Below, piece after piece: positions 598 to 57,557 of a DNA stretch of 64,000 nt. A program made the position numbers and the translations under genes. The stretch covers positions 207,291-271,290 of IMG/VR virus record IMGVR_UViG_3300034117_002447, one strand, 5' to 3'. Source of the stretch: a virus. Each line of letters opens with the position of its first letter. Within the stretch, counting starts at the first letter, position 1. The notes under the pieces were generated by a model that saw nothing but the letters and a program-made list of their open reading frames with translations, was not told where the DNA came from and ran no database searches.

Positions 598-3500
598 CTT
601 GAAATTTGGCCAGTTGAGGTTAACACAAAAGAGTAATTTTGAGTTCCCTCAGTGTACCAAGTCACATCATGATTTCCACTAGACTGATCGACTACGTATA
701 TTTTAACAATCATTCTATCCGTTGGATTAATAGTTGTTGTTGGTAGCACTACATCAACGTTAGCTTCAACTGGAATCGTTGAACTAATCCAACCTATAAG
801 AACTTGATTAGTTGGTATTACTGTTCCATAACTAACACCTGCACTATTTGCTAATTCAATAGTAACAAATGTGTCTGTATTAAATCCTGCGCCGTCTTTT
901 AAGAAATGTAAATGGAATCTTTGTGTTCCTCCTGGTATTACAGAAAATCCTAATTCAGGAGTTATAAATTGTTGTACTAATACTGGAGTAGTACCTGTTG
1001 TAGTTTTAAGTATTGATTGTTGAGCAGCGCCGGTCGGATTAATATTTAGGTCTCTATACGTACCTATTCCAGAAGCAACTGACTGATTAAAATAATAAAT
1101 TTGACCTGCCGATATTCCAGTAGCTCCACTAGTTCCTGAAGAACCAGATGTTCCACTTGAACCGGAAGTTCCAGAAGTTCCGCTTGTTCCAGAAGTTCCT
1201 GACGAACCTGAAGTTCCAGAAGTTCCGCTTGTACCCGCCGTGCCGGATGAACCTGATGTTCCCGAAGTTCCACTTGAACCAGAAGTTCCAGTAGTTCCAG
1301 AAGAACCTGATGTTCCAGCCGTTCCGCTTGATCCATTTGAACCAGATGTTCCTGACGAACCAGAAGTACCTGAGCTACCGTCTGAACCTGAAGTTCCAGA
1401 AGAACCATTTGTTCCTGAGACTCCGTCTATTCCAGAAGTACCTGAAGAACCATCTGATCCTGACGTTCCAGAAGAACCATTTGAACCTGATGTACCAGAT
1501 GTTCCTGACGAACCATTAGAACCACTTGTTCCAGAAGTACCTGAGCTACCATTTGAACCGGAAGTCCCTGATGTTCCAGAAGAACCGTTAGAACCTGATG
1601 TTCCTGACGAACCAGAAGTACCTGAGCTACCGTCTGAACCCGATGTTCCAGAAGAACCGTTTGAACCTGAAGTACCAGATGAACCGTTAGAACCTGATGT
1701 TCCTGACGAACCAGAAGTACCTGAGCTACCGGCTGAACCTGACGTACCAGAAGAACCATTTGTTCCTGAGACTCCGTCTATTCCACTAGTACCTGAAGAA
1801 CCATCTGAGCCTGAAGTTCCAGAAGAACCATTTGAACCTGATGTACCAGAGGTACCATTTGAACCTGAAGTTCCAGAAGAACCATTTGAACCAGAAGTAC
1901 CTGATGTTCCAGAAGAACCGTTTGAACCTGAAGTACCAGTTGAACCAGAAGTACCGGATGTTCCTGAAGAACCGTCTGAACCTGAAGTTCCTGAAGAACC
2001 GTTTGAACCTGATGTTCCAGAGCTACCATTTGAACCTGAAGTACCTGAAGTACCTGAGCTACCATCTGAGCCGGAAGTTCCGCTTGAGCCGTTTGTTCCT
2101 GAGACTCCATCTATTCCAGAAGTTCCAGAAGAACCGTCTGAACCTGATGTACCGCTTGAGCCGTTAGAGCCTGAAGTACCAGATGTACCAGATGTTCCCG
2201 AAGAACCGTTAGAACCTGAAGTACCTGAAGTTCCAGAAGAACCTGAAGTACCAGAGCTACCGTTTGAGCCTGAAGTACCTGAGCTACCGTCTGAGCCACT
2301 AGTACCAGAAGAACCATTTGAACCAGATGTTCCTGAAGTACCAGAGCTACCATTTGAACCGGAGGTACCTGATGTTCCAGAAGAACCTGAAGTACCTGAG
2401 CTACCATCTGAACCTGATGTTCCCGAAGAACCATTTGTTCCAGAAACTCCGTCTATTCCAGAAGTTCCAGAAGAACCGTCTGAACCGCTAGTACCGCTTG
2501 AGCCGTTTGAACCCGAAGTTCCAGAAGAACCGTTTGAACCTGAAGTTCCGCTTGTGCCGGAAGTTCCAGCTGAACCACTTGTTCCACTTGATCCGCTAGT
2601 ACCCGAGCTACCATTTGAGCCACTAGTACCTGAGCTACCATTTGAACCTGAAGTACCCGAAGTACCAGATGAACCAGAAGTACCGCTTGAGCCGTTTGAA
2701 CCTGAAGTTCCTGAAGTACCTGAAGAACCGTTAGAACCAGAAGTACCTGAGCTACCGTCTGAACCTGACGTACCTGCTGAACCTGAAGTTCCTGATACAC
2801 CATCTATTCCAGAAGTACCTGAAGAACCATCTGAACCTGAAGTTCCAGAAGAACCGTTTGAACCTGATGTACCGGATGTTCCAGAAGAACCGTTTGATCC
2901 TGAAGTTCCAGAAGAACCATCTGAACCTGACGTACCAGATGAACCATTTGTTCCTGAGACTCCATCTATTCCTGATGTACCTGAGCTACCGTCTGATCCT
3001 GAAGTACCTGAGGTACCATTTGAACCTGAAGTACCTGAGGTACCATTTGAACCGTTTGAACCTGAAGTTCCGTTTGAACCCGAAGTTCCAGAAGAACCAT
3101 CTGAACCGGACGTACCGGCAGAACCTGAAGTTCCTGATACTCCGTCTATTCCAGAAGTACCTGAGCTACCGTCTGATCCTGAAGTACCTGAGCTACCGTT
3201 TGATCCTGAAGTTCCAGAGCTACCATTTGAACCTGAAGTACCTGAGGTACCATTTGAACCTGAAGTACCGCTTGAGCCATCTGACCCTGAAGTTCCAGCC
3301 GAACCTGATGTTCCTGAGACTCCGTCTATTCCTGATGTTCCGGAAGATCCATTTGAACCAGAAGTTCCAGAAGAACCGTTTGAACCGGAAGTTCCAGAAG
3401 AACCATTTGAACCGGAAGTACCTGAGCTACCGTCTGAACCTGACGTACCTGCTGAACCTGAAGTTCCGGAAACTCCGTCTATTCCTGATGTTCCCGAAGA

Positions 3501-4916
3501 ACCGTCTGACCCTGAAGTTCCAGAGCTACCATTTGAGCCTGATGTACCGCTTGAGCCGTTAGAACCTGAAGTTCCAGAAGAACCGTTTGAGCCTGATGTT
3601 CCAGAGCTACCGTCTGAACCGCTTGTTCCAGAAGAACCGCTTGTTCCTGAGACTCCATCTATTCCTGAAGTACCTGAACTACCGTCTGAACCAGAAGTAC
3701 CTGAAGTACCGGCTGACCCTGAAGTACCTGATGTTCCCGAAGAACCTGAAGTACCTGAGCTACCGTCTGAACCTGAAGTTCCAGCTGAACCTGAAGTTCC
3801 GGAAACTCCATCTATTCCTGAAGTACCTGAGCTACCGTCTGAACCAGAAGTACCTGAAGAACCTGATGTACCAGTTGAACCAGAAGTACCTGATGTACCT
3901 GATGTACCTGAGCTACCGTCTGAACCTGAAGTTCCAGAAGAACCGTTTGTTCCAGAGACTCCATCTATTCCTGAAGTACCTGAGCTACCGTCTGAACCAG
4001 AAGTACCTGAAGAACCTGATGTACCAGTTGAACCAGAAGTACCTGATGTACCTGAGCTGCCGTCTGAACCTGAAGTTCCAGAAGAACCGTTTGTTCCAGA
4101 GACTCCATCTATTCCTGAAGTACCAGAGCTGCCATCTGCACCAGAAGTCCCAGCTGAACCAGACGTTCCACTTGAACCGTTTGAGCCGGATGTACCAGAA
4201 GTACCGGTTGAACCGGACGTACCTGAAGTACCTGACGTACCAGATGAACCGGCAGTACCGGAAGTTCCACTTGTTCCTGAAGTACCGGATGAACTAGTAA
4301 GTCCATCTTCTAATGTTGTACCAATATAGTAAAAACCTTTAATATATGGATCAACTGATCCATAAGTAGAAGTTAAATAAGTAACCATTGAATCTGATAA
4401 TAGTAGAATACCATTATCGTAATTAAAAACCCAACTTACTTCAGTGCCTGCATTATCAGTAGTTAAGATTTGGGTTCCGCCTGATGCAGGATTACCATTC
4501 CAAAATTCAGCGGTCCATCCAATTGAAGGAGCACCGCTTGCTTGCAATATCTTTTGAGGTTGAATCCAGTCTAGGATTTGTGTGTTAAAATCGTTAAGCG
4601 TCGAACAGGCTACCCATGTAGTATTATTACCTGAAATAACTTGACTTAATTCTACGGCATTTCCTGTAGAATATGCGTCTGCTACAATCGTTTCCAACGG
4701 TTGACCTGATGCTAATAGAGCAACAGCCGCTGATTTATTTGCAACTGGGTTTTGTTTAACAACATCGAACTGAGTTAAAACTCGAGCAGCTGATATATTA
4801 GGGTTAAACGCAAACTTTGCTTCGTACCAATTAAAATTAGAGGCAGAATCAATTACGTTTGCGGCTTGGACCTTAAATACGAGTTTTAATCTTTCATTAT
4901 CTGTATAGCCTGCCAT
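1..4916 (-). CDS. Giant collagen-like tail fibre protein (partial, C-terminus beyond window)
   Basis: The frame is open from ATG at 4916 to the left window edge (1638 codons, no stop). Residues 1 to about 210 form a non-repetitive N-terminal domain beginning [12 protein letters not shown], probably the attachment part. Residues about 211-1265 are about 350 uninterrupted Gly-X-Y triplets, mostly GTS, GSS, GSN and GSD. Residues about 1266-1440 are a beta-rich non-collagen domain ([13 protein letters not shown] onward, ending in STGQISSS). A second Gly-X-Y stretch then runs out of the window. X and Y are nearly all Ser, Thr, Asn, Asp or Ala, and proline is virtually absent, unlike most collagen-like proteins. 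It is probably a trimeric fibre or whisker on the virion, inferred from the repeat and from the late structural neighbours. It follows a 66-aa gene by 7 bp and belongs to the unit headed by the late promoter at 7053. Confidence 0.85.
1113..4286 (-). repeat. Gly-X-Y coding repeat, first block
   Basis: About 3.2 kb of 9-nt-periodic sequence encodes glycine at every third codon on the minus strand. A variant unit, Gly-Ile-Asp-Gly-Val-Ser-Gly-Thr-Asn (or close), recurs 13 times, near positions 1424, 1775, 2108, 2450, 2798, 2958, 3138, 3318, 3474, 3650, 3804, 3957 and 4100. It recurs every 143-180 bases in the part nearest the N-terminus and about every 340 bases further on. The low-complexity composition leaves long spurious open frames on the plus strand. 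Confidence 0.85.
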
Positions 4917-10552: not shown

Positions 10553-11905
10553 TTATTTTATTGGATTTTTACTGCCTTTTGCTGTACCTGAAAGAACTTC
10601 TGTTTTACTATCAACTTCTGCATCTAGTGCAATAATACCTGATCTAACGATACACTCATTTAGATTAGCATAGATGACACTTTCTGGAGAACTTTTGATA
10701 TAACTAAGGTCTATTCGATTAACGCTACCTTTTTCAAACATACACTCGTCTAGGTGACAGTATCGGATATCGTTTCCGGTTAGGATTCGACATTCGGTTA
10801 TATGTGATGATCTTACTTTGCAGCCATAAAGCATACAGTCTGTAATCTCTGCCTCAATTGAGCAATTTATCAAGTCAAGCCCTTTAATTCCAAATCCTTC
10901 CTTTAACGAAGAATCTTTTAATTGAACTCTCTCCGTATCAGTATCATAGTTAATAGAACCTTTAGTCATTTGGCCAAAAGTAATTAAGTCAAATAGGCTA
11001 TCTCTAACCTTTAGGTAATTTGCTTCAAGAATACGAGGGTCATCTTTTAAGTCAACGTAAAGATCGATATTTGGAAAATTCTTAGTGAAATTTTCGTATG
11101 ACTTTAGAGCAAGAGTGTTATCTCTTTGTTTTTTCAAAACATCGTGAACTTTTTTCTGTTCATCAATTGAGTATTGGTAATTAGATTGAAGCGTGTTGTA
11201 CAGAGACTCGGCTATGTAGTTAACTAAGTTAGTTGCACTAGATCTCTTATTTTGATAGTCGGCTCCACCTGCGTATCTAACTTCAACGTAACCGTCTTTT
11301 AACTTATCGAAATTAATTCCAAAGTATTTAGATTGAGGGTAATTAAATTCAAGTGGACTGCTGGGTTTTGAATAGGCGATTGACGTCTCAGCTAGGAACT
11401 TATTTTTAGGGTAAATATTTGTTACTGGATTCTTGTAAATCTTTTGAATTCTAGATTTAGCAGAAGGCCACATGTCAAAGATTTTCTCCTCATTTAGTCC
11501 AAGAATGTACTTAAAAACATTTAGATTCTGAAGACGCTCTCTTAAACCAAGATCAAATTCATTTAGTGACATATTAATATGCAGTCCAGTACGTTCGGTC
11601 GTGAATCCATTTTCATCGATAAAATTCATAACTTTATACATAACGTGAATTGCTTCATTATATGGCATTACTCCAGTAATAAGCTCATTCATTTTAAATC
11701 CGCCTGAAAAATCTGGCTCTAATTTGAATTCTGAGTAACTTACGGCAATATCTGAATTGTATTCGTTTGTGCTGATTACTTTTTTGCCAAGTAATACTTC
11801 CAATTTTTCAGCAAGCTCAGCCCTACCGATTGGAGAAAAGAATTCAAATTCGAATCCAATATTTACGTTGTCAAAAAGACGTTGTTGATTTAGATCTTTA
11901 TACAT
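10553..11905 (-). CDS. Amidoligase-like protein (COOH-NH2 ligase superfamily)
   Basis: The N-terminal half shows the pattern of the phage/bacterial amidoligase family related to glutamine synthetase: GFEFEF at residues 17-22, KLEPDFSGG at 61-69 followed by NELITG (E74), and TGLHINMS at 106-113 (H109), then a basic YVEVRYAGG near residue 230. Family members are predicted to form amide bonds using ATP. From about residue 340 the sequence changes to short repeats (NCSIEAEITDCML, SHITECRIL, YCHLDECMF) resembling a pentapeptide/beta-helix repeat domain. It is translated 5 bp after the upstream 690-aa virion protein, so it shares the late unit. The substrate is unknown; modification of a virion protein or of cell wall is possible. 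Motif-based call, not confirmed. Confidence 0.55.
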   Translation of the reverse strand: MYKDLNQQRLFDNVNIGFEFEFFSPIGRAELAEKLEVLLGKKVISTNEYNSDIAVSYSEFKLEPDFSGGFKMNELITGVMPYNEAIHVMYKVMNFIDENGFTTERTGLHINMSLNEFDLGLRERLQNLNVFKYILGLNEEKIFDMWPSAKSRIQKIYKNPVTNIYPKNKFLAETSIAYSKPSSPLEFNYPQSKYFGINFDKLKDGYVEVRYAGGADYQNKRSSATNLVNYIAESLYNTLQSNYQYSIDEQKKVHDVLKKQRDNTLALKSYENFTKNFPNIDLYVDLKDDPRILEANYLKVRDSLFDLITFGQMTKGSINYDTDTERVQLKDSSLKEGFGIKGLDLINCSIEAEITDCMLYGCKVRSSHITECRILTGNDIRYCHLDECMFEKGSVNRIDLSYIKSSPESVIYANLNECIVRSGIIALDAEVDSKTEVLSGTAKGSKNPIK

Positions 11906-35609: not shown

Positions 35610-36353
35610 ATGTTTGATCCACATCAATTAGAAAAAATGCTGTTCTTCGATATAGAAACAGCTGGAACAGTTAGCCATTCTGGAGATCTTTCAGAGAAAA
35701 TGCAAGAACTTTGGGCAAATCGTTCGGAAATCCTTAGAAATCAATTGGGTGCAAAGTATCCAGACAATAAAGATAAATCAGACGATGAGCTTTATCAAAT
35801 GAAATCAGCTCTTCACGCTGAATTCGGTAGAGTTGTCTGTATTTCCTTCGGTAAAATTAAATGGGTGGACGGCGAACCCGTAGCTCAAATAGTTTCCTAC
35901 TCTGGAGAAGATGAAGAAGACATTTTACGTCAAGCCTTTAAGGTAATTGGTGGTCTTGGGAAAACTGGTGCTAAATTAACTGGCCATAACGTTAAAAGAT
36001 TCGATGTTCCATATCTTTGCAAAAGAGCATTTATACTAGGAGTAGAAACACCAATACCTCTTCAAGTATGGGATAAAAAACCTTGGGAAACTTCAATTAT
36101 TGATACTTCTGAGCTTTGGTCATTTGGTGCATGGCAAGAAGGATTCACTTCACTCGACTTATTAGCCACTATTCTAGGAGTCGATTCACCGAAAGACGAT
36201 ATCAAAGGTGATCAAGTTCATGAGAATTACTGGGCCGGTAATATCGAAAGAATTAAAGAATACTGCCAAAAAGACGTAATTACGTTAATTCAGATAGCTT
36301 TAAAGCTTTCTAACCTAAACCAAATTGAAAAATCTGGTATAATAATAAAGTAA
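35610..36353 (+). CDS. DnaQ/PolB-type 3'-5' exonuclease
   Basis: A 247-aa stand-alone exonuclease with the three DEDDy motifs: FFDIET (D14, E16), TGHNVKRFDVPYL (D132) and EYCQKDVITLI (Y218, D222). It matches the family of predicted 3'-5' exonucleases related to the DNA polymerase B proofreading domain. It should remove 3' nucleotides from DNA, probably in repair or proofreading. It is the first plus-strand gene after the divergent region, 16 bp before groEL. The phage polymerase fragment at 56 kb keeps its own exonuclease domain, so this is an additional activity. Confidence 0.8.
   Translation: MFDPHQLEKMLFFDIETAGTVSHSGDLSEKMQELWANRSEILRNQLGAKYPDNKDKSDDELYQMKSALHAEFGRVVCISFGKIKWVDGEPVAQIVSYSGEDEEDILRQAFKVIGGLGKTGAKLTGHNVKRFDVPYLCKRAFILGVETPIPLQVWDKKPWETSIIDTSELWSFGAWQEGFTSLDLLATILGVDSPKDDIKGDQVHENYWAGNIERIKEYCQKDVITLIQIALKLSNLNQIEKSGIIIK
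36337..36343 (+). promoter_or_regulatory. Promoter-like GTATAAT upstream of groEL
   Basis: GTATAAT ends 26 nt before the groEL start, inside the last codons of the exonuclease gene. The same element precedes the S1-like gene and the gp32-like gene at similar distances. Confidence 0.4.
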
Positions 36354-36369
36354 AATAACCACACAATAA

Positions 36370-37953
<1,584 letters not shown>

Positions 37954-38052: not shown

Positions 38053-41000
38053 GTGGATAAAACATTTAAGGAAATATTAACAGATATTAAATGCGGAAAG
38101 CTAGCATCCCCAGCGTTTACGGAAGATGATTTAGCTAAAGTAAAAGCCTGTATTCCTGAACCAATAGCTCAACCTACTAAAGAGGTAAAAGTTACAGTTC
38201 CATCAGAGAGCTCATGCGTTAACGATGGATTAATCCAGGTTAAAAAGATCCTAACCGAACAGCTTTCGAAACAAGATGTAGTTGTTGAACTTGGAACAAT
38301 TAAAGGTAAAGTAGAAGAAGCACTAGATCATTACAAAGTCATTTCTAATTATTATAAGGCTAGGGTTGAATTCTTTACTTCCACCATAAGTACAGTTGAA
38401 CCTCTCACCTCCCAGTATCTGTATTGGACGGACGAGTATGATAGAACTAAAGCAATTGAAGATAAAATAATTGAGGACTATAATTCAACGTTTCAGTCGT
38501 TTGACTATGTAAATTATGGAATCAAGTTAGTAGTTTCACTAACTGATTCTCAATTTAAAACTATCACTACGTATAATTCAACTGTCTTATCTAATCTTAT
38601 TACCCAAACCTATTTTAACTATATTGTCAATACTCCAATATACCTCAAGTATTATACAGCTAGAAAAAATAGAATCTTAGCAGAAGAGCGTCAACTTCTT
38701 TCTAAGCAAGGAGCAGCAAATGCACTATCTCAAAGTATTCAAAACTATCCAGCCTTAAGCGATAGTTCAACAGTTGAGTCCACTTTAAATTCGCTAACTT
38801 CAAAAATAAGCGGTCAATTAATACCTATTTTTTCAGATACTGAATCTTCTCTAACTGGAGGACTTATTGCTCCAGCTAGAACGGCTGTGTTTTCAATGAG
38901 ATTAATCGATTTAGATTTTACTAAATTAACGGTCCCTAAATTATTGGAAAATGGAGAAACTTCTCAAGTTGAAAAAACATTAGTTATACGCAATAGCCCA
39001 TACCTAAAAAATTCTCCATTCTCTAATTCAGTTGCTACTAGTTGTCAGTCAATTCCATTTGAGCAATACAAACAGAATAGAGACTATGATTTTATCTCTG
39101 GTGCTTTATACAACTTAACTGCTAGCGGATATAGAGGGCTTTATAAAAAATTAGCCAATCCGATTTCAAATCTATATACACCAGAGGAAAGAGGATTAAC
39201 TGTTGATCCAACTAAAATTGATCCGTTAATAAAAGACGTTGAAAACGCGCCAGTTTCTTTAAAAGAAGGAGACATCACGTTTTATATAAGTAGTCAAGAA
39301 GCCTACTCTACCTTCTATGATACTGCTAATAAAAGTTTACCTGATAGAATTAAGAAAGAAAAGGAGCAGGTGTTTCCAGCGGAAATAGCACCAACTTTAA
39401 CCTCCCTATCTACTATTGCAAAAAGAGAAGTTGCTGACTTTTTTAGAAGGACTACTGACGCATCAATTAAATTAGCTAGACCGACTTCATATAGGGCAGG
39501 AGCTTCAACTGTTTATACACAAGGAGTATTCAAGTATTCTACGCTAGACACCGTGATTTCTCAAAGGTTAGCGTACTATCAAAAAGCATACGATGAAGCT
39601 GCTCTAAAAATACAGGCTTGTCAAAAAGATATCGCTAACTTAGATCTACTAATAAAAGAAAATTCAATGGACCCCAAGGTTCTTGAAGTTAAAATTTCCA
39701 AGATAAAATGTTTTAGCGAAGCAGCTAAGTCAAAAGCCGTTGCCAAAGATTGTGAAGCTGAAACTCTCGCGAAATTAGGAAAAGATCCTCTCTTTATTAG
39801 AACATTAAATGGAAATGATTCTAAATTACCTGACATGAATAACCCATGTTATTGGAAAGAGTTTGCAAAAGCGTTAAACAAAGTAAGTTTATTACCTATT
39901 CCTGATCTAAGCTCTCCATTATTTAGATATTATCCAATTAACAATATTATTCCAACTCCACTTGGTATAGTAATGATTCCTATACCTCAAAAGTGGACTC
40001 CGTTATTTTCTTTATCTACTCCGCTTGGCACAATTGTTACATTTATAACAATGCCAGTCGTAATTGTTGGAATCCCATTACCATCAGTTTACGTGTTATA
40101 CATAGCACCGGATGGTAGAAAATACATGCTAGTTGCTCCAAATATTCCATTCCTACTAATCCCAGGTGGATCTAAAGTTGGATTTGAGGTAGACAACAGC
40201 CCAGCTTCTCAGAACCCATTAGGTATAAATCCAACTGACCCATTTAAAGGACAGCTTACTAAAGGCTCTCTAAGTATACCAATTACAATTTCAGCAAAAG
40301 CATCAAAGGCAATTAGAGTTGCAACCGTCGCCGCGGCTGTTGCATTAGGAAAGGGCATTGACATAAAGAATGGAGCAGGAGCAGTGTTAGGACAAATTGA
40401 TCCTGTGACTTATCTTGCTAAATATACTGGGCTTTCTGAGAAATTAGCGGACGCCCTCGATATGGAAGCGTCCAATGATTTTACAAAACAAGTAAACGAA
40501 TTTAAGAGATCAATTAACAAGCAATTCGATAGACTTGGGGAAATTCAAATTACCGCGATAACTAAGTTAAAGGAAAAGACTAGAAACGAGAGAGACTCTC
40601 AAGTTAAAGGCGCTGAGTCTGAAGAAAACTTAGCAAAGAAGCGCGAAACTAAAAAGAAGGCTCGATCGCTTGATCCAATAACACTACAGTCTAAAATTGA
40701 TGGAGTGCTAGAAGATTTCAATAAGTACATTGATAAAATCAAATTAGGAACAATTTCATTCCCTAACGATCCGACTAAATTAAATCCACCTCTACCTAAT
40801 GCAGTTAGTGCGATGCAGCCAATTGTTGAACAAGCCGCAAAAGGCGAACTTAATCTTGACCTCGACTCAGTTAACTTTATTGCAAAGATTAAAAGAATGG
40901 CTGCTCAAGTAGATACCTCAAAATTAAAATCAAAAAAATCGTTTAATCTAAACAAGCAAGAAGATATTGTTGAATTTAAAAAAGCGATAAAAGAGTACAC

Positions 41001-42411
41001 AAAAGAGGCAATGGATTATCTGCAAGGAGTAAAGTCCCCAGCAGATGACATTGATCCAAATTTAAGTGATGAAGAAAAAGCAAGAATAAAAAAAGCAGCC
41101 GATCTTAGAAAGGCTCGCTTAAAGTCGGCACTGGCGTTTACTTCGCTATCAATAGTCTCACCGAGTTTAAAATTATTTGATCCATTTGCCCCATGCTGCT
41201 CAACTGAAGAGACTTCACTTGAATTACCAGCGTCTCCTCAAATATTAGCCGCGATTGCAATATTTAATGCGTTATTAGATGCAGTACTAAGCGGATTAAC
41301 CGTTGAATCACTAAAAGCCTTACTTGGAGATTCTCTATCTAATATTGGAATATCTAGCATAACAAGCCTATTTGATTCTATACTTTCAGCATTTCCACCA
41401 ATTGTTTTACCTAATAAAGCAGATTTAGTTGCAATTTCACAAGCAATGCTTATTCCAGTATTAACTGCATTACACGTCCCACAAGCACCAAATCCTTTGG
41501 GACTACCCTTTCCGATTCAAGTATCAATTCCATTAGACGCACTAATTAAGCCTCTTCTTAAATCAGCAATTGCTTACCTTCTTGAACTAATTTTAAGAAT
41601 GCTAGCCGATGCTGGAAATTTATTAACGTCCGGAGCCGGATCGGCTGCTTCTACGACAGTCGGTGAGATACTTCAATTAATACCATGTGGAAATTCACAA
41701 ACCGCTACTGTAACTACAACCGCCGCTTCAAAATTCGTCACAATTACTTTACCTAATGGATTTAAACTTAAGCTTCCTAAAATTCCAATGATTCCATTAG
41801 ACATAGTCAGTTATTTTTCATTACTTACCTCTACTGACTTGGTTGAATTAATCAGAAGCTTAATTAATACGGCAATCGACGGAATATTGCAACCGGTTAA
41901 GTCTATCGTTGAGCCAATTCTTGGATTAACTAAATCCTTAAAGGATCTATCGTTTAACATCATTGAATCAGCGAATCCATACATTCTTCCAATTAAATTA
42001 ATTATAATGGCGCTTCAATTACAGATACCTAATTCAACAAAGGTTAGACTCACTAATTTAGATGCAATGGATTTGATTAAAGCCGCCTATATTCCAGTTA
42101 TCACTGCTACTGAACCAGTCGTAAAAGAGATAGCATACTTGGGCGCAATCATATCGTGTTCTTTTCTAAGTAAGCCCGGCGTTCAGTTAGCTAGAGTAGC
42201 ATCAAGCCCATTTTTTAACCAGGATGATCTTCCGCCTTGGGAAAGATTAACTCATAAAAATCCATTATTTGCAATATTTCTGGATGAGTTAGCTTGGAGA
42301 TCAAGCCTACTTTCAACCGGCACCTTAATATTCCAAAGTAAAATGCCAGGGCTGTATCCAACCACCTGGGCACCAAGTATATTTGTTGATCCAGGAATTC
42401 ATACAATTTAA
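38053..42411 (+). CDS. Very large probable virion protein, unknown function (1452 aa)
   Basis: It opens with GTG (MDKTFKEILTDIKCGKLASP). The first 600 residues are helical with Tyr-rich and coiled-coil-like parts. Residues about 640-710 are strongly hydrophobic and beta/Pro-rich (TPLGTIVTFITMPVVIVGIP). A charged Lys/Glu-rich region with coiled-coil character follows at about 820-1020. The last 400 residues again contain long hydrophobic helices (ILAAIAIFNALLDAVLSGL, LLKSAIAYLLELILRMLA). Alternating amphipathic and hydrophobic blocks could fit a baseplate/tail hub, ejected protein or membrane-active protein. I do not recognise a family. It lies alone between groEL and the S1-like gene; an ATAAAATAA just upstream could be a degenerate late promoter. 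Confidence 0.6.
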   Translation: MDKTFKEILTDIKCGKLASPAFTEDDLAKVKACIPEPIAQPTKEVKVTVPSESSCVNDGLIQVKKILTEQLSKQDVVVELGTIKGKVEEALDHYKVISNYYKARVEFFTSTISTVEPLTSQYLYWTDEYDRTKAIEDKIIEDYNSTFQSFDYVNYGIKLVVSLTDSQFKTITTYNSTVLSNLITQTYFNYIVNTPIYLKYYTARKNRILAEERQLLSKQGAANALSQSIQNYPALSDSSTVESTLNSLTSKISGQLIPIFSDTESSLTGGLIAPARTAVFSMRLIDLDFTKLTVPKLLENGETSQVEKTLVIRNSPYLKNSPFSNSVATSCQSIPFEQYKQNRDYDFISGALYNLTASGYRGLYKKLANPISNLYTPEERGLTVDPTKIDPLIKDVENAPVSLKEGDITFYISSQEAYSTFYDTANKSLPDRIKKEKEQVFPAEIAPTLTSLSTIAKREVADFFRRTTDASIKLARPTSYRAGASTVYTQGVFKYSTLDTVISQRLAYYQKAYDEAALKIQACQKDIANLDLLIKENSMDPKVLEVKISKIKCFSEAAKSKAVAKDCEAETLAKLGKDPLFIRTLNGNDSKLPDMNNPCYWKEFAKALNKVSLLPIPDLSSPLFRYYPINNIIPTPLGIVMIPIPQKWTPLFSLSTPLGTIVTFITMPVVIVGIPLPSVYVLYIAPDGRKYMLVAPNIPFLLIPGGSKVGFEVDNSPASQNPLGINPTDPFKGQLTKGSLSIPITISAKASKAIRVATVAAAVALGKGIDIKNGAGAVLGQIDPVTYLAKYTGLSEKLADALDMEASNDFTKQVNEFKRSINKQFDRLGEIQITAITKLKEKTRNERDSQVKGAESEENLAKKRETKKKARSLDPITLQSKIDGVLEDFNKYIDKIKLGTISFPNDPTKLNPPLPNAVSAMQPIVEQAAKGELNLDLDSVNFIAKIKRMAAQVDTSKLKSKKSFNLNKQEDIVEFKKAIKEYTKEAMDYLQGVKSPADDIDPNLSDEEKARIKKAADLRKARLKSALAFTSLSIVSPSLKLFDPFAPCCSTEETSLELPASPQILAAIAIFNALLDAVLSGLTVESLKALLGDSLSNIGISSITSLFDSILSAFPPIVLPNKADLVAISQAMLIPVLTALHVPQAPNPLGLPFPIQVSIPLDALIKPLLKSAIAYLLELILRMLADAGNLLTSGAGSAASTTVGEILQLIPCGNSQTATVTTTAASKFVTITLPNGFKLKLPKIPMIPLDIVSYFSLLTSTDLVELIRSLINTAIDGILQPVKSIVEPILGLTKSLKDLSFNIIESANPYILPIKLIIMALQLQIPNSTKVRLTNLDAMDLIKAAYIPVITATEPVVKEIAYLGAIISCSFLSKPGVQLARVASSPFFNQDDLPPWERLTHKNPLFAIFLDELAWRSSLLSTGTLIFQSKMPGLYPTTWAPSIFVDPGIHTI

Positions 42412-42430
42412 AACTCTAGGCAGTTTCTGT

Positions 42431-42437
42431 GTATAAT
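42431..42437 (+). promoter_or_regulatory. Promoter-like GTATAAT upstream of S1-like gene
   Basis: TGTGTATAATTTA in the 58-bp gap after the 1452-aa gene; the hexamer TATAAT matches a sigma-70 -10 box and lies 33 nt before the ATG at 42470. Confidence 0.45.
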
Positions 42438-42469
42438 TTATTAGTTAACTTTTTTAATCTAACAAAAAC

Positions 42470-43651
42470 ATGCAAAAAAACGAAAACGTCCAAGAAGTTA
42501 TTGATTTTGACTTACTGTTTAGCCAGGGAAATTCCCGAGTAAACAAAAGCATTAAATTAACTCCAGCGGATAAAAAAGCGGGCTTAAAGATTTTCTGTAA
42601 AGAACCTTATGCCCAAGAGCTTTACGACAAGTACTATTCATCAAATACATTCGGCGCAACCGCAAATAAAGACTTTGAAATAGGTCATGTTTGTAAAGTA
42701 ACTGCCAAGAAAATTGATTTTGAAAACAAACAAATCGAAGTTCAAGATGATGATTCCTTGTCTACTATCTTTGTTCCATTTAGAGAATTTAGCGAAGAGC
42801 CTTCTTTGTTATTACAGAATGAAACAAGTGCAAAGTTCAAAGTTGTTATCTACAAAGCCGATGCCGGCGATTATTTAGGATCAGAAAAACGTTGCGCTGC
42901 TCTTTCTTACCGAGACGATCTTAACGAGTTCTTAAAAGAAGAAAAATGGTTCTATGTTAAGGTTACTAACCTAGTTAAAGGAGGTTACCTTGCACTGTAT
43001 AAAGGAACAGTTAAATGTTTCCTACCTGGATCACATGCTGCTGCAAACGTTATTCGAGACTTCAATGAATACTTGAATAAAGAGATTCCAGTAATGATTG
43101 AGAACTACGATCAAACAAATGATCTATTCATTGTTTCATACAAGAAATATATTAAACAAACTTTACCTCAAAGAGTTCACGAACTTAAATTTGGAGAAAA
43201 GTACACAGGTATTTTAACTAACAAACCTTATGATTTCGGAATGTTCGTTGAATTCCAAAACTATTTTACCGGGCTATTACACAAAACTGAATTTGCAAAT
43301 TACGAAGAATTCAGTAAAGGTTATAAATCCGGAGATTCAATTGATTTCTATATCAAAGATATCGTAATCAAGAAAGGAGAGCCTAGAATTATTTTAACTG
43401 ATTCATTAGAGAAAGTAGGAGAAGAGCAGTTAACTTGGCAAAACCTAAAAGACCGAATCGAAGGTCAAACATTAAATTTCACACTTAACAAACAAACTTT
43501 TGTTTTAGAAATTGAGTTACCTGATTCAGATACAGTTTTTACAACTGACGTAAATCACCTTAAAGGTAGAACCAAGGTGAGCGATTCAGGCCAAATCCAA
43601 GTCTACAAAGTAGATGCGATTAGAAAGCAATTAAAGTTCGAATTCGTCTAA
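42470..43651 (+). CDS. S1 RNA-binding domain protein (ribosomal protein S1-like)
   Basis: A 393-aa protein with at least three OB/S1-type segments: residues about 68-135 (FEIGHVCKVTAKKIDFENKQ), 155-225 (WFYVKVTNLVKGGYLALYKG then CFLPGSHA) and 236-310 (FGEKYTGILTNKPYDFGMFV then FTGLLHKTEF). The last is the clearest S1 domain. The architecture resembles a shortened ribosomal protein S1. S1-type proteins bind single-stranded mRNA and help start translation; the genes in this window lack Shine-Dalgarno motifs, so recruitment of ribosomes to phage mRNA is a reasonable inference. RNA stability or antitermination roles are alternatives. It has its own promoter-like element and ends 200 bp before nrdB. 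Confidence 0.78.
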   Translation: MQKNENVQEVIDFDLLFSQGNSRVNKSIKLTPADKKAGLKIFCKEPYAQELYDKYYSSNTFGATANKDFEIGHVCKVTAKKIDFENKQIEVQDDDSLSTIFVPFREFSEEPSLLLQNETSAKFKVVIYKADAGDYLGSEKRCAALSYRDDLNEFLKEEKWFYVKVTNLVKGGYLALYKGTVKCFLPGSHAAANVIRDFNEYLNKEIPVMIENYDQTNDLFIVSYKKYIKQTLPQRVHELKFGEKYTGILTNKPYDFGMFVEFQNYFTGLLHKTEFANYEEFSKGYKSGDSIDFYIKDIVIKKGEPRIILTDSLEKVGEEQLTWQNLKDRIEGQTLNFTLNKQTFVLEIELPDSDTVFTTDVNHLKGRTKVSDSGQIQVYKVDAIRKQLKFEFV

Positions 43652-43661
43652 TTTTATAAGT

Positions 43662-43727
43662 TGCGTGGTATTATAGTTTCGATATAAATAATCCAGATGG
43701 ATAACTCGAAATTTAAAATACCACGCA
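43662..43727 (+). promoter_or_regulatory. Nested inverted repeats upstream of nrdB (possible RNA element)
   Basis: An 11-bp perfect inverted repeat TGCGTGGTATT (43662-43672) / AATACCACGCA (43717-43727) encloses a second, 6-bp one, TTTCGA (43677-43682) / TCGAAA (43706-43711). The inner loop holds a late promoter-like TATAAATAAT. It could be a leader-RNA structure, an operator or a terminator of the S1-like gene (ATTTT follows). Confidence 0.45.
43684..43691 (+). promoter_or_regulatory. Possible late promoter-like ATAAATAA upstream of nrdB
   Basis: GATATAAATAAT contains the exact T4 late core TATAAATA (43683-43690). It lies 160 nt before nrdB and inside a nested inverted repeat, so its use is uncertain. 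Confidence 0.35.
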
Positions 43728-50367: not shown

Positions 50368-51477
50368 ATGAATTTAATCATTGACGGAAATGCGTTTCTG
50401 AATGTCGCAGTAAGTATCGCAAAAAATATATTAGCTAACGATAAGAGAGTTGGCGAAAAGTATTATGTCAATGACTTATTAAATGACGATAAGTTTATTC
50501 TAAAGCAGGTAAGCAAAGATACATTTAGACAATTTTCTGTAAATTACTTTGGCAGCATTCTTGCTCCATTTAAGGAAAACATCAGTTCAGTATTTTTTGT
50601 ATTTGACTCTAAGAGTTGGAGAAAGAAATATATCAAAGAACATTTTGAAACACACGGAGAAGGGGATTTCAGTTATAAAGGTCAAAGAAAATACGATGAT
50701 AAAATTTATCTGTTCTTTGAATACTTTCAAAATGAAATTCTAAGTACAATATCTGACGATTATGGAGTTGTAGTAAACCGTGTTCCTGGAGCAGAAGGTG
50801 ATGATTTAATTGCTTACATTTGCGAAAATTTAAAAGAAGATATTTGTATTTGGTCAGTAGACAAAGACTTAACCCAGTTACTTGAAAGTGACAAACGTAA
50901 AGTTATTTTGATTATGCCTAAGCAAATGACGAAATACAAAAAGATCTACACAACTGAAGATTTCGGTAAAGTTGAACCCGCTGAAGTTGACCTTTTTAAT
51001 TTTGATATTGACTCAATAGACAATTCAGCTGTAACTAACATAATCAACGACTTAACTCAAAAGGACTATCAACACTTAACCGTTGATCCAACTTTAGATA
51101 TCTTAGTTAAGTGTTTAGCGGGTGATGCATCAGACAATATTCCAAGAGTCCATCCCAAGATGACAGCCTCTAAAGTAACAAAAATTGTCGAATACGTAAA
51201 GCAATCGCTTCAATGGAAAGACGTTATTTACTTCATTGATTCAGGTGATCTAGGTTTCATGGATTTATTACGTGAAGTAACATGTGAAGTCCTTAAAATA
51301 AAGGAACCTGGTGAATGGCTGACGATCGAGAACAACCTTAATCGTAACAAGACCTTAATCAGATTAAGTACAGCAGTTTTTCCAAAAGACGTACTTGATG
51401 CAATTAAAGAAAACGTTGACTTGACTACTCGTAGAAAATTCAATTACTACCAATTCAAAAAAAATTACAAGAATTAA
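50368..51477 (+). CDS. rnh: rnh-like 5'-3' exonuclease / flap endonuclease
   Basis: A 369-aa PIN/FEN-family nuclease. Metal-binding acidic motifs are in order: LIIDGNAFL (D6), FFVFDSKSW, PGAEGDDLIAYI, WSVDKDLTQLL, and the helix-hairpin-helix region LVKCLAGDASDNIPRV. It corresponds to T4 RNase H, which removes RNA primers and 5' flaps on the lagging strand. It lies directly downstream of the SSB gene, as the T4 genes rnh and 32 are near neighbours. The stop overlaps the GroES-like start (TAATG). Confidence 0.87.
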   Translation: MNLIIDGNAFLNVAVSIAKNILANDKRVGEKYYVNDLLNDDKFILKQVSKDTFRQFSVNYFGSILAPFKENISSVFFVFDSKSWRKKYIKEHFETHGEGDFSYKGQRKYDDKIYLFFEYFQNEILSTISDDYGVVVNRVPGAEGDDLIAYICENLKEDICIWSVDKDLTQLLESDKRKVILIMPKQMTKYKKIYTTEDFGKVEPAEVDLFNFDIDSIDNSAVTNIINDLTQKDYQHLTVDPTLDILVKCLAGDASDNIPRVHPKMTASKVTKIVEYVKQSLQWKDVIYFIDSGDLGFMDLLREVTCEVLKIKEPGEWLTIENNLNRNKTLIRLSTAVFPKDVLDAIKENVDLTTRRKFNYYQFKKNYKN

Positions 51478-51809
51478 TGAGTACACCAATCAAAGGAGGA
51501 TTTATTCCTCTATTCGAAAGAATATTAGTTTTACCGGACTCAGTAGAGTCTAAAACTGAAACAGGCATCATTTTATCAGTTGATGCTAGAAAAAGACCCA
51601 ATACCGGAGTAGTAATTGCAGTAGGCCATCTGGTTTCCAGTAATTCAGGTTGCCCAATCAAAGAAGGCGATCGAGTTTTATATCAACGATACTCAGGACT
51701 TGACGTCCAGTGGGACGGTACTAACTACCACATCATTATGGCAAACGATCTTGTCGCCATTATAAACAAAGACGAGACTACACAATTTGAACTTAAAGAA
51801 AATGCTTAA
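51477..51809 (+). CDS. groES: GroES-like co-chaperonin (gp31-type)
   Basis: A 110-aa protein with the GroES beta-barrel pattern: FIPLFERILVLPD at the start, a mobile-loop-like segment ESKTETGIILSV (residues about 24-35), NTGVVIAVG, and IKEGDRVLYQRYSGLDVQWD matching the GroES GDKVLFxKYAG segment, ending NDLVAII. Length is near T4 gp31 (111 aa). It should cap GroEL, most simply the phage GroEL at 36370. The start is coupled to the preceding nuclease gene (TAATG), and the 3' end overlaps the HAD gene by 8 bp. Confidence 0.85.
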   Translation: MSTPIKGGFIPLFERILVLPDSVESKTETGIILSVDARKRPNTGVVIAVGHLVSSNSGCPIKEGDRVLYQRYSGLDVQWDGTNYHIIMANDLVAIINKDETTQFELKENA

Positions 51810-56174: not shown

Positions 56175-57557
56175 ATGATTGTAAGTACAGAATTTCACAC
56201 AGAAGACTCAGCTCTTCTAATCTCATATTATAAACCAGATGGAAATATCGGATTCATGAAGAAACCAATACTTCCGCATGACCTGTACAACTGGAATCTA
56301 ACGCCAACTCCAACTGAACATAGAAATTGGGATGGAAGATTCCTAAAGAAGGTTCAAGGAAAATGGTTAAGTCGATTTAGGCTTGAAGAGTTAACTCAAA
56401 CTAGGTTAGCCGAAACTGAGCTCGCTTCAATTTATTCAGATGATAGCCCAAAGAAATACTATCTGGATATTGAGATTCAGCTTATTTCTCAAGATTTCCC
56501 AGATCCAGCTAAAGCCGCAATGCCGGTTAATATGATTACTTTCGTAAATGAAGATAACGTATGTTTCGTAATGTCAACTATGCGAGATCTTGCACCTGAT
56601 GTAGTTACTCGACTAGAAGACGAAGTAAATGATTATTTTAAAGCGCATGAGCAAACGTTCGTAGTTAAGCACCTATTCTTTGAACATGAAGAAGACTTAA
56701 TGAAAACTTTCTTTCACAAAGTTCTTCCAAAGATTCCTTTCTTAACAGGCTGGAACGTAATTGGATTTGACTGGTTGTATTTAATTAATCGTTGTAAGAA
56801 TTTAGGAATTGAACCAATGTTAAACATGCCTTCTAAAACCCTAATCGGCAAGGCCAAAATGCCAGTTCACTTAGGACTTCTGGATTACATGGAAGTGTTT
56901 ATGAATACTAAACCTTACAAAGTAGTTGAGAATTACAAGTTAGATTACATTGCAAATTTAGTATTAGGAACAACTAAATTACATAGTGAATATGCAACAA
57001 TGATGGAAGCTCAGCAAGACGTTGAGAACTTTACAAAGTATAACATTATCGATACAATTCTAGTTAAACTAATTGAAGATAAGCTTGGATTGCTTGATGT
57101 AGCCTTCGCTATCTCCAAGTTTGCAAAGGTCGATGTATCAAAAGTATTCTCTGCAGTATTCATTACTGAAACTCTAATGTGTCGTGAATTCTTAGAAAGA
57201 GGTTTGTATATGGCAAACGACCGAAGAGAATTAGAAGAAGATGCAACTTACGATGGAGCATACGTCGCTAAGCCTGAACCTGGATATTACAAATACGTTT
57301 CATGTTTTGACTTTGCCTCAATGTATCCCAATATCCAAATCCAATTTAATATTTCACCAGATTCATACGGTGGAAAAATTAAAGCTGGTCAAGAACCTAC
57401 GATTGATCAGGTCTTAACCAAGAACGACACGTTATTTACTAAGAAATACGATTCAGCTGCTCGAACTATTTTAACAAGACTATACAATGGTCGTGTTGAT
57501 ACTAAGGACGAAATGAAAAAATTAGAAGAACAATTGTCCAGTGATAAAGTGGCTTAA
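56175..57557 (+). CDS. 43: Family B DNA polymerase, N-terminal part (exonuclease + motif A; split gene)
   Basis: 460 aa against about 900 for T4 gp43. The N-terminal domain and 3'-5' exonuclease are present: YYLDIEIQ (D98, E100) and TGWNVIGFDWLYLINR. The palm motif A is SCFDFASMYPNIQIQFNISP, about residues 375-395. The frame then enters the fingers (ARTILTRLYNGRVDTKDEMK) and stops at LSSDKVA. Motif B (K-x3-N-S-x-Y-G) and motif C (D-T-D) are absent, and the next genes do not encode them. The rest must be in a separate ORF elsewhere, or the gene is broken. The stop is followed by an unrelated gene with a normal leader, so this looks like a genuine split rather than a sequencing frameshift. Confidence 0.82.
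   Translation: MIVSTEFHTEDSALLISYYKPDGNIGFMKKPILPHDLYNWNLTPTPTEHRNWDGRFLKKVQGKWLSRFRLEELTQTRLAETELASIYSDDSPKKYYLDIEIQLISQDFPDPAKAAMPVNMITFVNEDNVCFVMSTMRDLAPDVVTRLEDEVNDYFKAHEQTFVVKHLFFEHEEDLMKTFFHKVLPKIPFLTGWNVIGFDWLYLINRCKNLGIEPMLNMPSKTLIGKAKMPVHLGLLDYMEVFMNTKPYKVVENYKLDYIANLVLGTTKLHSEYATMMEAQQDVENFTKYNIIDTILVKLIEDKLGLLDVAFAISKFAKVDVSKVFSAVFITETLMCREFLERGLYMANDRRELEEDATYDGAYVAKPEPGYYKYVSCFDFASMYPNIQIQFNISPDSYGGKIKAGQEPTIDQVLTKNDTLFTKKYDSAARTILTRLYNGRVDTKDEMKKLEEQLSSDKVA

Follow-up and report, generated by a model that had tools for sequence, protein, structure and literature searches.

Locus and domain organization

The window, i.e., the whole stretch of 64,000 nucleotides that was analyzed, forms the end part of a virus record of 271,290 bp, a jumbo-phage contig. 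At 42470-43651 on the plus strand, an open reading frame starting with ATG encodes a protein of 393 aa. The features assigned to this gene and its upstream region were as follows (window positions).

42408..42437, +: weak sigma-70-like match TTAAAA-18-TATAAT upstream of S1
42445..42469, +: A-rich leader without Shine-Dalgarno site, ttaacttttttaatctaacaaaaac-ATG
42470..43651, +: bS1-like protein of 393 aa with four OB folds (ORF, bS1 profiles, AlphaFold2, Foldseek)
42470..42559, +: N-terminal tail, residues 1-30 (pLDDT <50 at residues 1-21, AlphaFold2)
42506..42520, +: F13-D-L-L-F17, putative uS2 anchor at the position of F-[DNE]-W of relatives (compare E. coli F5xxLF9; PMC4288201)
42560..42649, +: phage-specific helical segment KxFCxEPYAQELYDxY, lying between tail and OB1 (alignment, AlphaFold2)
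42680..42886, +: OB1, bS1 domain 1-like (bS1 profiles, AlphaFold2)
42947..43138, +: OB2, bS1 domain 2-like, K170-G-G-Y173...F184-L-P-G-S, mRNA-pincer residues kept
43199..43399, +: OB3, bS1 domain 3-like, canonical S1 RNA-binding OB with F256, F259, H271, and R306
43469..43645, +: OB4, degenerate fourth OB fold (alignment, AlphaFold2)

The AlphaFold2 model of the 393-aa protein had a mean pLDDT of 81 and a pTM of 0.54, with residues 1-21 disordered and four OB barrels at residues 74-138, 160-223, 244-310, and 334-392. Pfam recognized a single S1 domain (PF00575, residues 242-299, E 1.5e-6). The first-pass annotation, which was made from the letters alone, had described three S1/OB segments; these segments were real but undercounted, the degenerate fourth appearing in the model. 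In the alignment, OB4 carried no S1 RNA-contact signature, and bS1 domains 5-6 were absent from the protein.

The sigma-70-like match upstream was considered weak because the region was not enriched in such matches relative to shuffles. At window position 43683, shortly after the end of S1 and ahead of nrdB, a T4-late-promoter-like TATAAATA was observed; the raw count of matches to TATAAATA/TATAATA on the plus strand of the window was six. Near the S1 gene, no structured RNA was matched in Rfam.

Phage context and gene neighborhood

The description of the gene as phage-encoded was borne out by the record, as the same contig carries genes for a tail sheath, a T4-gp55-like late sigma factor, NrdBA, GroEL/ES, a DnaB-type helicase, and DNA polymerase. 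According to the tail sheath and NrdA, the relatives of this phage are Flavobacterium phage MaF61, Tenacibaculum phage pT24, Lak phages, and Mahaphages, and on the basis of these relatives a Bacteroidota host is likely. The S1 gene was absent from two cultured phages, MaF61 and pT24, which are related by tail sheath. On the contig itself, neither a bS21 or IF3 partner nor a second S1-domain protein was found.

In the clade of the window phage, the order groEL, 1452-aa protein, S1, nrdB, and nrdA is widely kept. The 1452-aa protein of unknown function (window 38053-42411) lies upstream of S1 throughout this clade and evolves faster than its neighbors, its identity being 23-67% compared with 82-94% for nrdB. 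In some close relatives, S1 is not followed by nrdB and the close nrdA; an ORF approximately 24% identical to nrdA, perhaps of another reductase class, takes their place. These ORFs were located as follows.

L022:3571-6222: ORF ~24% identical to nrdA
L028:6207-8834: ORF ~24% identical to nrdA
L029:6255-8834: ORF ~24% identical to nrdA
L033:6402-9020: ORF ~24% identical to nrdA

Several other genes of the window were also recorded. Phage-borne GroEL (phrog_5725, 1e-158) and GroES are encoded at 36370-37953 and 51477-51809, the exonuclease-like and polymerase-like parts of DNA polymerase are two genes approximately 20 kb apart (35610-36353 and 56175-57557), and a long repetitive protein of 1029 aa with six phrog_31248 matches lies at 1240-4329, where open frames are found on the opposite strand too.

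In the case of the clade whose S1 proteins carry an F-x-W tail motif, S1 lies between tail-like genes and gp25/gp6-like genes within a baseplate-like gene block, these identities being a reading of sequence fragments and not a database result. An Amidoligase_2-like gene (PF12224) lies directly 3' of S1, mostly overlapping it, in >50 loci (L049-L101, e.g., L050:6157-7563). The two genes are not always together, as Lak-C1 is without the amidoligase. The homologue in the window is located in the structural module at 10553-11905 on the minus strand, 31 kb from S1. The baseplate-like block suggests late expression of S1 in the F-x-W clade.

Identity of the protein as bS1

The NCBIfam bS1 models paired residues ~67-302 with bS1 domains 1-3, one after the other, at up to 5e-23, while the PNPase model reached 2e-3. 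All bS1 models stayed far below the NCBIfam rpsA equivalog cut-offs of 368 bits and more, the window protein scoring 80 bits. When the 393-aa sequence was compared with solved structures, the top matches were all bS1, and a family profile of 29 relatives matched bS1 at 2e-38. The non-bS1 matches of this profile were Rrp5 (3e-11), GSP13 (1e-7), and PNPase (2e-6), mainly over a single OB. Structural comparison gave the same answer: Foldseek ranked bS1 of 30S complexes first, the best match being chain B of 9gut, the bS1 of a 30S complex for mRNA delivery, with E 5e-19 over 379 columns. When a relative with 33% identity was modelled in the same way, bS1 was again at the top. The overall TM-scores of the window model were low, as expected from a flexible domain chain, and the mutual placement of domains in the model is unreliable.

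A closer relationship to Tex- or RNase E-like proteins, raised earlier as the outcome that would speak against a translation factor, was not seen among the top sequence and fold matches. Tex, RNase E, PNPase, and NusA were ruled out as identities, their matches being confined to single OB folds and many orders weaker; moreover, the 393-aa protein contains no catalytic domain of the Tex, RNase E, PNPase, or GSP13 type. Judged from its sequence, the protein is a genuine, conserved, phage-borne short bS1 of bS1 descent.

Conservation was strongest in OB2-OB3 and weakest in OB4 and the N-terminal tail among the 29 family members compared. In OB3, F/Y256, F259, H271, and R/K306 were kept in 29/29 members; F256, F259, H271, and R306 are what we take to be the RNA-contact set of S1 domains. 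In OB2, K170 was kept in 26 members and Y/F173 and F184 in all 29, and these positions correspond to K117, F120, and F130 of E. coli S1, which hold mRNA (PMC10123108). The dN/dS ratio against relatives of 66-82% aa identity was 0.08-0.14 (~0.1), with dS saturated for three pairs. The S1 gene is under purifying selection, and its OB matches are beyond chance.

A phage family of S1 proteins

Relatives of the S1 protein occur in Lak phages, Mahaphages, and phage genomes of 462-735 kb, and an IMG/VR scan with an alignment query found them encoded in at least 593 of the 599 pattern matches listed. In a tree of OB2-OB3, all 36 phage proteins fell on one side of a branch with support of 100/99, the other side consisting of 33 rows from bacteria and one phage-labelled fragment. 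By this tree, the phage family forms a single clade separate from every bacterial bS1 in the sample and is phage-only as far as sampled, although its exact attachment is unsure because of long branches. A recent capture of a host gene was rejected, as the phage clade lies away from Bacteroidota bS1. However, a tree joining phage and Bacteroidia bS1 was not rejected (p-AU 0.076), and thus the family may be of old Bacteroidota origin.

N-terminal tail and putative uS2 anchor

The N-terminal segment of E. coli S1, itself disordered, becomes folded on uS2 via Phe5 and Phe9. Ribosome binding requires this segment, which as a free peptide also attaches to 30S, in competition with S1 (PMC4288201). 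In the phage family, F-x-W was found in 41 of 65 distinct N-termini, compared with 2.2 in composition shuffles (maximum 8, 2000 runs), the counts being non-independent observations because the phages carrying the motif are related. Among other proteins of the same phage loci, F-[DNE]-W occurred in 1 of 376. The tails of host bS1 carried F-[DN]-W in 28/28 closer Bacteroidota sequences and in 0/21 more distant ones; the label Bacteroidia for the closer set was taken from similarity and named Bacteroidales loci. The Lak tail SFNWTPYEDGW, for example, stands beside the host tail DFNWDAYENGE.

The window protein carries FDLLF instead of FDW. In its subclade, F-x-W is replaced by [FL]-x-x-[LIM]-F, which resembles the spacing of FAQLF in E. 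coli and Proteus, and one relative of 61% identity (L006) has no aromatic residue at the anchor position. The second uS2 contact of E. coli S1 is Lys43 in an OB1 loop, which enters the zinc pocket of uS2. A manual alignment placed Leu97 of the window OB1 at this position, while alignments placed Lys there in L034, L035, L037, and the Mahaphages L013-L016. By analogy, we infer that the phage tail may be functionally equivalent to the uS2 anchor of E. coli.

Translation leaders of phage and host

The genes of the window showed an A content of 0.49 over positions -20 to -1, with Shine-Dalgarno-like 4-mers in 3% versus 4.5% in shuffles, which agrees with the A-rich leaders noticed in the first-pass annotation and indicates no Shine-Dalgarno excess. 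In 327 Bacteroidales genes, leader A was 0.40, peaking at 0.51/0.50 at -13/-12, with nearly no Shine-Dalgarno excess; the S1-phage loci peaked at 0.57/0.56 at the same positions. Phage leaders were more A-rich overall than those of the host (0.49 vs 0.40), in a more AT-rich genome. The pattern of A at -12/-13 without Shine-Dalgarno sites was described in F. johnsoniae, with bS1 as its suggested but unproven reader (PMC6847099).

As this pattern is common to phage and host, a special phage leader was rejected, and A-rich leaders alone cannot separate phage from host mRNA. The earlier proposal of an S1-like translation factor was supported as to bS1 descent and the features linked to docking and RNA binding, which were kept. 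A role of A-rich leaders in singling out phage mRNAs was not supported in the form proposed. The leaders themselves fit an S1-dependent system.

Proposed role during infection

We consider it fairly probable that the protein is a minimal, phage-adapted bS1 that takes the place of host bS1 on 30S or competes with it there. The disordered N-terminal tail would dock on uS2 of the host 30S, the docking site of host bS1, OB1 and OB2 would follow the platform at the mRNA exit, and single-stranded mRNA leaders would be bound by OB3. Domains 1-3 of E. coli S1 retain its activities on 30S (PMC3858243) and by themselves suffice for docking and mRNA unfolding. A short S1 can therefore work, and the phage protein could serve initiation by itself. 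In an infected cell it would thus substitute for host bS1, supplement it, or outcompete it, and phage mRNAs would stay translated. From these comparisons we infer docking on uS2, displacement of host bS1, and a benefit to phage mRNAs. Several observations count against a minimal bS1, namely, FDLLF in place of FDW, the missing aromatic residue of L006, Leu97 at the Lys43 position, the degenerate OB4, the absence of domains 5-6, and the position of the family outside Bacteroidota bS1 in the OB2-OB3 tree.

The same docking could instead shut off the host. A dominant-negative S1 on uS2 would block host bS1 and lower S1-dependent host translation, while the weakly structured, A-rich phage mRNAs would need S1 less. 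The N-terminal domain or tail peptide of E. coli S1 alone inhibits bulk translation (PMC4288201), and the degenerate OB4 and missing domains 5-6 are in line with a blocker. However, a pure blocker needs neither the invariant RNA-contact residues of OB3 nor OB2-OB3 as the most conserved region, and E. coli domains 1-3 are active by themselves; host shut-off was thus regarded as unlikely. Slightly less likely still is a factor of bS1 descent that acts off the ribosome as an RNA chaperone or stability factor, protecting phage mRNA or serving a phage RNase or polymerase as cofactor. Such a role would have precedents in Q-beta replicase and T4 RegB, in which bS1 acts (named in PMC13157829), and would suit an old and diverged family whose window member has lost the OB1 lysine anchor, but the anchor-like tail motif is strongly enriched, and OB1-OB2, mainly docking domains in E. 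coli, are kept. A late-expressed OB-fold protein of virion structure or assembly, which the probable baseplate block and the following Amidoligase_2-like gene of the F-x-W clade would favor, is very improbable given the canonical S1 RNA-binding residues, the bS1-specific domain order, and the location of S1 beside nrdBA, outside the baseplate-like block, in the clade of the window; moreover, that gene order may only mean late expression.

Returning to the minimal bS1, a broader proposal is made tentatively and seems doubtful at present: a very large Bacteroidia phage family may have retained a reduced bS1 with a tail that mimics the Bacteroidia-specific F-[DN]-W uS2 anchor, leading to a phage-type 30S with altered mRNA choice. 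If true, a phage-type 30S would be built during infection in a host class without Shine-Dalgarno pairing. For the choice of start codons without Shine-Dalgarno pairing in Bacteroidia, bS1 is a candidate reader of A-rich leaders (PMC6847099). A widespread, near-minimal phage S1 with an anchor-like peptide matched to the host class would be a tool for probing the role of bS1 in Bacteroidia and for asking whether ribosome remodeling by phages, proposed in the case of bS21, extends to S1. The conserved, ribosome-anchor-like end peptide of this phage family makes the replacement idea directly testable.

Comparison with known S1 proteins

With bacterial bS1 (rpsA; E. coli and Bacteroidia types), the phage protein shares the colinear OB1-OB2-OB3, the KGG[FY]...F[LM]PGS of domain 2 and the S1 RNA-contact residues of domain 3, and a disordered N-terminal tail with an aromatic motif. 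Unlike bacterial bS1, it has four OB folds, not six, with OB4 degenerate, carries its own insert before OB1, and belongs to a separate clade; unlike E. coli bS1, it has Leu as the Lys43 equivalent. Bacteroidetes bS1 has six OB domains (PMC6705787), while the number can be below six in other phyla.

Among viral proteins, UniProt A0A6J5NIG6 (BFVD), "30S ribosomal protein S1 [uncultured Caudovirales phage]", was 41% identical over 387 columns, with a TM of 0.78. It was already named S1, in name only. Microcystis phage PhiMa05 also carries a bS1, with a proposed role on the host ribosome, which groups with Vampirovibrio-type bacterial proteins (PMC13157829) and is a separate, apparently recent capture; the family of the window protein, in contrast, has diverged and had only phage members in the sampling.

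The rpS1 of huge phages was reported by Al-Shayeb et al. (2020), with up to six S1 domains, a link to missing Shine-Dalgarno sites, and a model of ribosome hijacking (PMC7162821). The same authors cautioned that a true rpS1 is hard to confirm, S1 domains being common (PMC7162821), and Mizuno et al. (2019) excluded S1 for the same reason (PMC6375957). The Lak and Mahaphage genomes among these huge phages encode homologues of the window protein, with 21-26% global identity and a best local identity of at most 31%. A phage genome of >200 kb (here, 271 kb), no Shine-Dalgarno sites, and the hijack proposal are common to both. The general idea of a phage rpS1 has been known since 2020 (PMC7162821); the present analysis contributes the assignment to bS1 domains, the form with four OB folds, the tail resembling an anchor, and the control with host leaders.
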